NCBI GenBank assembly: GCA_021803945.1
Contig: JAJZKW010000011.1
Coordinates: 1-41,095, forward strand
Direction of reading: 5' to 3'
Source of the DNA: Microcaldota archaeon
Lineage (GTDB): Archaea > Micrarchaeota > Micrarchaeia > Micrarchaeales > CABMGC01
Length of the DNA: 41,095 bases
Shown: in pieces, positions 5,895 through 32,086 of the stretch
Layout of the letters: each line of letters begins with the position of its first letter
How positions within the stretch are numbered: the first letter of the stretch is position 1
Translations under genes and position numbers: made by a program
The notes under the pieces: model-generated
The model's database searches: none
What the model was told of the DNA's origin: nothing
Seen by the model: the letters and a program-made list of their open reading frames with translations, nothing else

Positions 5895-6001
5895 GCAGGG
5901 GTGGCAGAGTCTGGTCTGGCTGGTATCGGCCACGGAAAAACGCGCGGGACTTAAGATCCCGTGGCTTAGCGCCTTCGAGAGTTCAAATCTCTCCCCCTGC
6001 A
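5895..6001 (+). tRNA. tRNA-Leu(UAA) with a putative D-loop intron (about 5916-5938)
   Basis: Acceptor GCAGGGG/CCCCTGC, anticodon arm CGGGA-CTTAAGA-TCCCG, T-arm GAGAG-TTCAAAT-CTCTC, long variable arm; extra hairpin in the D-loop. Confidence 0.9.
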
Positions 6002-12200: not shown

Positions 12201-12330
12201 GTGACATCCTCCCACGATTGAAATTCGTGGGCTTCCAATGGTGTCTTTTTGATATTTATCATGTCGAAGCACCATGTTTAGTTCCTGATTCAGCGACATC
12301 TGCTTCCATGTGCGGAAGTCTTACAATGTC
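12201..12330 (-). ncRNA. putative reRNA/omegaRNA scaffold covering the tnpB 3' end and right end
   Basis: Position by analogy with TnpB systems plus the conserved right-end hairpin; boundaries inferred. Confidence 0.4.
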
Positions 12331-13467
12331 TCCAGAGGCGTGACTTCCCGAATGTCCTTCGGTAGTTCGGTCTTTTTCAAGACCAAGTCTCAGTATGTTC
12401 TTAGATGCGTTCAGGTCTCGGTCAATCTGCAATCCGCATTTTTCGCAGTTGAAGATTCTGTTTTCTAGAGATATTTCCTGAACTTTGCCACATTCATGGC
12501 ATGTCTGCGAGGTGTATTGTGGGGGCACATCAACAACTCTGCAACCAGCACTTTCAGCCTTGTAGCAGAGGAATTGCGTGAATCTTGCCCACGATACGTC
12601 GTTTATGGATTTAGCGAGTTTATGGTTCTTCACCATGTTCTGAATCTGTAAGTTTTCGTATGCGATGAAGGAATATGAGTTTACGAGATTGTGAGAAAGT
12701 TTATGTGTAAAGTCCTCACGTTTGTTTGTTATTTTGTCATAGACCTTTGAAAGTAATATCACAGTCTTCCTTCGATTTCTTGAGCCTTTTATCCTTCGGG
12801 AAACCTTCTGATGCGACTTTATCAGCCTCTTTTCGTATTCTTTGCCGAACCGCATGTTGGCAATTTTTACATTGTCGGACAGTGTGGCATATTCCTTTAG
12901 ACCTAAATCTAAACCTATCTGCGGTTTGCCGTTTGGAGCAAATGATTTGTCTCCTTTTTCGACTGAGATTGTGACGAACCATTCCTGAGATTTAGTCCTC
13001 TTTATCGTAAGCGTGTTTATTTCGCCTTCAATTTCCCTGTGGTTTACGAAGTTTACATTGCCGATTGTTGAAAGATAGATATTCTTTTTATTGAGTCTGA
13101 ATCCGGAATCAGGGTAAGTCAATGAGGAAGTAAATTTCCTGAAACGAGGGAAACCGACATGCTGATGTTTTCCATTGTGATTCCTCTTTACTCTCCTGAA
13201 GAAATTTTTGTATGCGCCATGAAGCCTCTGGGATACGTTCTGTAATACTTGTGAATGGATGTCTTGATATTGCGGATATTCCTTTTTGAATTTTGTTATC
13301 CATTTGTTCATGTCGTATTGGGTGAAGGTCTTTCCTGTATCTTTGAAATACTCCTTTGATTTTACAAGAAGGAAATTGTAGAGTTCCTTGCAGAGAAACA
13401 TCTGATGATTTAGATTAGATTTCTGCTCTTTTGAAGGATATGCTCTAAATTTGTATGCGCTTTTCAT
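12259..13467 (-). CDS. tnpB: TnpB RNA-guided nuclease/transposon protein
   Basis: IGLDLGLKEYATLSD, FIAYENLQIQNM, CHECG...CEKCG zinc finger, DRDLNASKNIL; apparently full length (402 aa). Confidence 0.93.
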   Translation of the reverse strand: MKSAYKFRAYPSKEQKSNLNHQMFLCKELYNFLLVKSKEYFKDTGKTFTQYDMNKWITKFKKEYPQYQDIHSQVLQNVSQRLHGAYKNFFRRVKRNHNGKHQHVGFPRFRKFTSSLTYPDSGFRLNKKNIYLSTIGNVNFVNHREIEGEINTLTIKRTKSQEWFVTISVEKGDKSFAPNGKPQIGLDLGLKEYATLSDNVKIANMRFGKEYEKRLIKSHQKVSRRIKGSRNRRKTVILLSKVYDKITNKREDFTHKLSHNLVNSYSFIAYENLQIQNMVKNHKLAKSINDVSWARFTQFLCYKAESAGCRVVDVPPQYTSQTCHECGKVQEISLENRIFNCEKCGLQIDRDLNASKNILRLGLEKDRTTEGHSGSHASGDIVRLPHMEADVAESGTKHGAST

Positions 13468-15591: not shown

Positions 15592-16350
15592 TTATCTCCT
15601 CTTCCTTGAAGAGGGCTTATGAAAATTCCTGCTCCTTGTGTCAGTTAGTATCATGTGGAAATTGTTGTCGAATCCCAGGGCCTGCCTGAATGCATCATGG
15701 TCAAGCGTTATTGTGCTGTCTGAGTACGGGTCGTTTATGTAGAAGGCGTCCTTGTCATAGCCCTTCACCACTATCCAATGTGGAGAAGACTCTACATACG
15801 GGTTTAGGGCGTTCGCATCTATCAGGACTATTGGTATCTGGTTTGTTGAAAGGGCCCTCTTAACTGAGTTTAGCGAGAAATCGCTTGTGTATTCCTCCTG
15901 TATGCCTATACTCTCCGACTTCTGCTTTGTCTCGTTGTACGATGCTGTAAGCGTATCTAGGTTTACATTCTCGTACACAGCCAGCTTACGGTCATATCCC
16001 TCGTCCTTGGTGTTGCTCTGTATCTTTACCTTTGCTCCCCTCTTGGCTATTGAATATGCTAGGCCGTATTTGGAACCGTGCCATACGCTGCCGTTTACGG
16101 CTTCCTGCCATATGCTGTACTCCTCCTCCTTCTTCATCTTGAAGTCGCTGTTTACGTGCTTCAGCACCATCATTGCACATGCTGCAGAGCTTGTGAACTC
16201 TTCTGTCTGCGGATAGTGCTCTATCTCAAAAAGCACCTTGTCCTTGATCTTTGCCTTTGCAGGCCTCCTCTTAGGCGCTGCCGGCCTGGAGCGCTTGCTC
16301 GCATGCCTCCTTGAAGGAGCTGTTTTTTGCTTTTTGGAGCGTTTCGCCAT
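15592..16350 (-). CDS. C39-like peptidase-fold protein with Lys/Arg-rich N-terminus; catalytic Cys apparently replaced
   Basis: YPQTEEFTSSAACAMMVLKHV aligns with the QxxxxTCGPAALMM type motif; SPHWIVVKGYDKDAFYINDP retains His and Asp. Confidence 0.65.
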   Translation of the reverse strand: MAKRSKKQKTAPSRRHASKRSRPAAPKRRPAKAKIKDKVLFEIEHYPQTEEFTSSAACAMMVLKHVNSDFKMKKEEEYSIWQEAVNGSVWHGSKYGLAYSIAKRGAKVKIQSNTKDEGYDRKLAVYENVNLDTLTASYNETKQKSESIGIQEEYTSDFSLNSVKRALSTNQIPIVLIDANALNPYVESSPHWIVVKGYDKDAFYINDPYSDSTITLDHDAFRQALGFDNNFHMILTDTRSRNFHKPSSRKRR

Positions 16351-16370: not shown

Positions 16371-16468
16371 TGCAGGGAGAGAGATTTGTTCAGATTTTTT
16401 GAACTCCCGCAGGCCTAAGCCAACAGATCTTGAGTCTGCCGCGTTTGACCGGGCTCCGCCATCCCTGC
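16371..16468 (-). tRNA. tRNA-Leu(CAA) with a 13-nt intron in the T-loop (16386-16398)
   Basis: GCAGGGA/TCCCTGC acceptor, GCAGA-CTCAAGA-TCTGT anticodon arm, long variable arm; T-arm read as GGGAGTTCAA[AAAATCTGAACAA]ATCTCTC. Confidence 0.93.
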
Positions 16469-16578
16469 AACACGTAGTAATTATAAACCATTATATTTAA
16501 AGTTTGATGCCGTATAACAACGGCGCATACTTATAGAATGTTATCTCATATATAATACTTACTATAGAGATTTAGCTG

Positions 16579-31942: not shown

Positions 31943-32086
31943 GGGGTTGTGGCGTAACTTGGCAGCGCGGCAGGCTCCAGATGTTTAACCAAATAAATGA
32001 GCATTGTGCGATGATTAGGATTTGGAGCTATGATTTTGTGAAATGGGCGTTACCTGCATGTCCGGGTTCAAATCCCGGCAACCCCA
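31943..32086 (+). tRNA. tRNA-Trp(CCA) with a 71-nt intron at 37/38 (31981-32051)
   Basis: GGGGTTG/CAACCCC acceptor, GCAGG-CTCCAG...A-CCTGC anticodon arm, CCGGG-TTCAAAT-CCCGG T-arm. Confidence 0.92.

Follow-up and report, generated by a model that had tools for sequence, protein, structure and literature searches.

A putative 13-nt intron in the T-loop of tRNA-Leu(CAA) and its retention across an order of Micrarchaeota

The tRNA-Leu(CAA) gene and its surroundings

The window considered here, the whole analysed stretch of 41,095 nt from a Microcaldota archaeon (contig JAJZKW010000011.1), carries on its minus strand a tRNA-Leu(CAA) gene (16371..16468) that is 98 nt long, would measure 85 nt once spliced, and reads UUG codons. 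Direct reading of the minus strand from 16468 to 16371 gives GCAGGGA..CTCAAGA..GGGAG-TTCAAAAAATCTGAACAAAT-CTCTC-TCCCTGC-A, in which all four stems (acceptor, D, anticodon, and T) are sound. The Rfam tRNA model (RF00005) finds a match with identical coordinates that scores 42.2 bits, against a cut-off of 29 bits, and treats the additional sequence as a T-loop insertion, whereas ARAGORN reports no tRNA-Leu(CAA) gene at 16371-16468. The expectation of the sequence-only reading that standard tRNA finders might miss or mis-score the gene is therefore borne out for ARAGORN but not for the Rfam model, and tRNA sets compiled with ARAGORN for these genomes may wrongly seem to be without tRNA-Leu(CAA).

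Several lines of evidence support the view that this is a working gene, the expression of which is predicted. Orthologues were collected with the gene as BLAST query in 60 genomes (the window's own included; 43 genera and two families of one order), and no insert motif was used in their selection. Compensatory stem changes are seen across 55 of these orthologues in the acceptor stem (pair 7), the D-stem (pair 3), the anticodon stem (pairs 2 and 3), and the T-stem (pairs 1 and 2), and the tRNA is therefore under selection as a tRNA; the sole non-standard pair is an A-C at the first anticodon-stem pair (7 of 55). UUG accounts for 39 of 507 leucine codons (7.7%) in 14 window genes, and a possible TATA box, TTTAAATA (16494..16501, minus strand), can be read approximately 26-33 bases upstream of the tRNA. 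Another intact copy had been named beforehand as an observation that would count against an intron in this one; BLAST and pattern searches of the assembly, which is ~94% complete, found no second tRNA-Leu(CAA). The tRNA inventory given by a genome-wide tRNA search is incomplete, as the tRNA-Trp gene of the window is missing from it. That the locus is instead a decaying pseudogene or an assembly error is extremely improbable. The silence of ARAGORN would suit either case, and tRNA-Leu(UAA) could read UUG by wobble, so that the gene might be non-essential; nevertheless, the recurrence of an insert at this site in well over 100 separately assembled genomes, the compensated stems with their single A-C exception, and the use of UUG codons all argue for a functional gene.

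A gene with a lysine-rich N-terminus (15592-16350, minus strand) begins 20 bases past tRNA-Leu(CAA) on the same strand, and in many relatives a start codon and lysine-rich codons likewise lie 3' of this tRNA, suggesting a conserved neighbourhood. Elsewhere in the window, a tRNA-Leu(UAA) gene (5895-6001, plus strand) contains a D-loop insert of about GTCTGG..GGCCACGG..AAAAACGC, because of which the ARAGORN call for this gene (5919-6001) has the wrong 5' end; of 12 genomes from the genus, 9 have a comparable D-loop insert, conserved at its flanks and variable in its middle. The tRNA-Trp(CCA) gene (31943-32086, plus strand) is interrupted in its anticodon loop by a long intron, within which lie ATTTGGAGC, a stretch complementary to the anticodon region, and a box-C-like GATGAT; the intron is reminiscent of the C/D guide introns carried by other archaeal tRNA-Trp genes. 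A 402-aa reading frame (12259-13467, minus strand), with CxxC motifs near its C-terminus and by eye resembling a TnpB-type transposon protein, overlaps the start of a lysyl-tRNA synthetase-like gene.

Fold and predicted splice sites of the T-loop insert

The T-loop of tRNA-Leu(CAA), TTCAAAAAATCTGAACAAAT (plus-strand 16403-16384), is 20 nt long rather than the usual 7. Removal of the 13 nt AAAATCTGAACAA (16386..16398, minus strand), which lie between tRNA positions 58 and 59, would leave TTCAAAT, and the spliced 85-nt form is computed to fold with a 5-bp T-stem and a 7-nt loop of that sequence. These limits had been proposed from the sequence alone and prove exact to the base. The T-arm fold proposed with them, GGGA/TCTC and GTTC/GAAC helices with AAA on both sides and no inner helix, was likewise reproduced by folding: an outer helix GGGA:UCUC is separated by 3-nt AAA segments on either side from a central helix in which exonic GUUC (G53, U54, U55, and C56; 16401..16404, minus strand) pairs with intronic GAAC (16388..16391, minus strand) at pair probabilities of 0.95-0.99, and the interior is unpaired. 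In the minimum-energy fold, the central helix gains one A-U pair. The 5' bulge or loop AA|A (16398..16400, minus strand) and the 3' bulge AA|A (16385..16387, minus strand) would each be cut after the second base, at 16399/16398 and 16386/16385, respectively. The arm thus possesses the 4-bp exon-intron central helix expected of an archaeal bulge-helix-bulge (BHB) or bulge-helix-loop (BHL) intron and, having no inner helix, falls outside the strict BHB definition and is filed as BHL. The hairpin is modestly more stable than its shuffled counterparts (z = -1.9), as expected for a piece so short, and the whole pre-tRNA is computed to have competing folds at 37 C; the argument accordingly rests on comparison between species and not on energy.

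All 60 genomes gave a BLAST match, with an insert at the same place in 56 and precisely none in four (G013, G040, G048, and G050). The 56 inserts range from 10 to 21 nt and their interiors vary in both length and sequence, whereas the four bases before the 3' bulge read GAAC in 38, GAAU in 8, GAGC in 7, and GGAC in 3. All of these conform to GRRY and all pair with GUUC, such that the helix is broken in 0 of 56. Given the bases of which the interiors are composed, chance alone would put GRRY at a given place with a frequency of ~0.014, a figure that serves as a guide rather than a test since the sequences are related. An inner helix can be formed in a few of the longer orthologues (L089 and, weakly, L062), and the description of the element as bulge-helix-loop consequently holds for the short members of the group but not for these longer ones.

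By the standard rule for bulge-helix-bulge elements, the cut in either bulge follows the second base. In the window, the repeats within TTCAAA and AACAAA allow four cut registers that yield the same product, and it is on this account that a true intron cut one or more bases away from 58/59 can be entertained at all. Over the 56 orthologues, A57 and A58 (before the 5' cut) and A59 (after the 3' cut) are invariant, the last base of the 5' bulge varies between A (41) and T (15), and the first two bases of the 3' bulge are AA, AC, or TA. This conservation, AA|N on the 5' side and NN|A on the 3' side, matches 3-nt bulges with predicted cuts after the second base. In the relatives with ACA or TAA as 3' bulge (5 of 56), some of the shifted registers would alter the near-universal A58, and the 58/59 register fits as the only one predicted to keep every retained base constant while obeying the second-base rule. 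A displaced cut is thus very unlikely.

Distribution and probable gain and loss

When 301 genomes of the phylum were scanned with a pattern describing the intron-bearing gene, 135 matched, every one of them from the two families of the window's order (164 genomes), and none of the 137 genomes outside that order did; the pattern contains GRRY and hence gauges the spread of the intron without being independent evidence for its helix. One match (G179) proved to be an intron-free tRNA with a chance match downstream, which leaves 134 of 164, and one further intron-bearing case was recognized by eye in a gene split at a contig end (L101, genome G021). Candidatus Micrarchaeum sp. A_DKE, for which a complete genome is available (NZ_CP060530.1), is among the named matches. 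The intron-free gene, sought with a second pattern, is present in eight genomes of the order, in genera g3 (five genomes), g30, g37, and g38, and also in roughly a dozen genomes from other families. Within the order, the insert is precisely absent from G013, G040, G048, and G050 and from four further genomes of the genus of G013. Genera g3, g30, and g38 contain intron-bearing species as well. The rest of the order's genomes, many of them incomplete, were assigned by neither pattern. This distribution, judged without a tree, is most simply explained by a single gain at the base of the order and at least four precise losses thereafter. The placement of an intron at 58/59, first put forward on the sequence of a single gene, is therefore upheld by the helix retained in 56 of 56 orthologues, the scrambled interior, and the eight genomes of the order from which the insert is precisely absent. 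The intron-free genes of genus g3 (L097; G174, G176, G177, and G179) have a U-U mismatch at T-stem 50-64 (GTGAG/CTCTC) that is absent from the intron-bearing orthologues examined.

A generic T-loop-intron pattern gave 76 matches in the window's own genome against 78 in a reversed control, and by eye tRNA-Leu(CAA) was the only tRNA with a T-loop insert among the former. Pattern matches in Archaeoglobi, Bacteroidetes, Chloroflexi, and others were not tRNA-like and were discarded, as were those in Halobacteriales, which were intron-free tRNAs with a chance match downstream; only one of the off-phylum matches examined, from Lokiarchaeota, looked real.

In these ultrasmall archaea, a very short T-loop intron (10-21 nt) would thus have been fixed in a single tRNA throughout an order, and the losses, at least four of them clean, provide a natural set for studying the way in which tRNA introns disappear and whether their presence is of consequence. 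It is unlikely that the intron has been kept by selection, for example as a splicing check or regulatory device or as a barrier to integrating elements, rather than by inertia. Retention in most of the order, set against at least four losses, is suggestive of selective keeping and does not decide the question. If selection were responsible, splicing could be a check or regulatory step for the single-copy tRNA-Leu(CAA), or the intron may interrupt 3' tRNA sequence that is targeted by integrating elements. Disrupted tRNA genes have been proposed to block the integration of mobile elements (Randau and Soll, as cited in PMC4390854), and the T-loop position would fit such a role.

The splicing endonuclease and comparison with known systems

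The genome has a single reading frame in which tRNA intron endonuclease domains are recognized. Its product, EndA, taken to begin at a probable internal start, comprises 384 aa and can be aligned over its full length with 4fz2 (also 9w2k), the epsilon2 endonuclease of ARMAN-2, with 58% identity (E 4e-150), as a single-chain, three-unit enzyme should. The catalytic residues Tyr236, His251, and Lys282 and the ASL residues Tyr160 and Lys161 are identical at the aligned positions, and the equivalents of Y160, K161, Y236, H251, S252, R275, and K282 are all kept. A structural study published in 2025 tied the Tyr160 and Lys161 loop residues to cleavage of both BHB and BHL elements, and ARMAN-2 EndA cleaves a BHL substrate in vitro (PMC12397907). 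Judged by its predicted sequence, the EndA of this genome is of the type that is known to cut both kinds of substrate, and the statement in the sequence-only reading that ARMAN-type archaea possess a broad-specificity endonuclease is thereby matched by an actual gene.

The T-arm sequence, the conservation of the helix and of the splice-site pattern, the genomes that precisely lack the insert, and an endonuclease gene with the key residues in place together indicate that the insert is very probably a noncanonical archaeal tRNA intron at 58/59, of bulge-helix-loop form, that would be removed by the epsilon2 EndA. In the precursor, G53-U54-U55-C56 would pair with the GAAC of the intron to give a 4-bp helix flanked by unpaired 3-nt AAA segments above the remaining T-stem, forming the bulge-helix-loop substrate; a few longer homologues may form a bulge-helix-bulge instead. 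The epsilon2 endonuclease would cut each AAA segment behind its second A, the exons would be joined by a tRNA ligase to produce TTCAAAT, and the T-arm and elbow could then fold. In this scheme, the steps of cleavage and ligation are predicted, as are the expression of the gene and the functioning of the mature tRNA. An enlarged T-loop is expected to spoil the elbow formed by the D-loop and T-loop. It is thus highly improbable that the insert is retained in a mature tRNA that works with a 20-nt T-loop and a small extra hairpin, as its shortness and its ability to form a hairpin might allow. In addition to the expected damage to the elbow, the inserts vary from 10 to 21 nt with scrambled interiors and only their splicing-relevant bases are conserved, eight genomes of the order have a normal 7-nt loop, and an EndA of the broad-specificity type is encoded in the genome. 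If the inserts are introns, the ~135 natural variants define what an epsilon2 endonuclease probably accepts, namely the helix, the bulges, and a hairpin loop of down to 6 nt.

Archaeal T-loop introns have already been described (PMC6379350, PMC12397907), which makes the intron less surprising than it first seemed. In the part of the literature covered, a search for an archaeal tRNA-Leu(CAA) intron returned nothing relevant, one for the shortest archaeal tRNA intron on record gave nothing usable, and no prior report was found of a single T-loop intron of such small size that persists through an order and has been cleanly lost several times. The intron is of a known kind, and no paper was found that describes it or its order-wide retention. 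The closest known system is that of ARMAN-1 and ARMAN-2, the noncanonical tRNA introns and epsilon2 EndA of which (Fujishima 2011; Hirata 2012) are reviewed in PMC6379350, PMC4033280, and PMC12397907, and which are among the species with multiple-intron tRNAs (PMC4033280). They belong to a related lineage (the window's order includes Candidatus Micrarchaeum sp. A_DKE) and share the same type of endonuclease with its ASL Tyr-Lys pair and with BHL substrates cut in vitro; however, the ARMAN-2 substrates of the 2025 paper were pre-tRNA-Ile(UAU) and pre-tRNA-Cys(GCA), not the T-loop intron considered here (PMC12397907).

A second occurrence of the 58/59 site, albeit a weaker case, is found in the Lokiarchaeota tRNA-Leu(CAA) gene L143 (contig SHMW01000035.1, 5270-5090), which has the same 3-nt bulges and a GTTC:GAGC complementarity. 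It differs in the length of its T-loop insert (31 nt), in an 8-bp inner helix, in a separate D-loop insert, and in its distant lineage, and its predicted fold does not favour the central helix. Because the lineage is distant, the Lokiarchaeota insert is probably an independent gain, in which case the site has been used more than once. Canonical archaeal introns at 37/38 follow the same BHB logic and involve the same enzyme but differ in position and in size, the 13 nt here contrasting with longer anticodon-loop introns such as that of the window's tRNA-Trp. Intron-rich archaea likewise carry BHB or BHL introns beyond 37/38, the T-arm included; they belong to other phyla, whereas here one T-loop intron appears to have been stable through a whole order of the Micrarchaeota.
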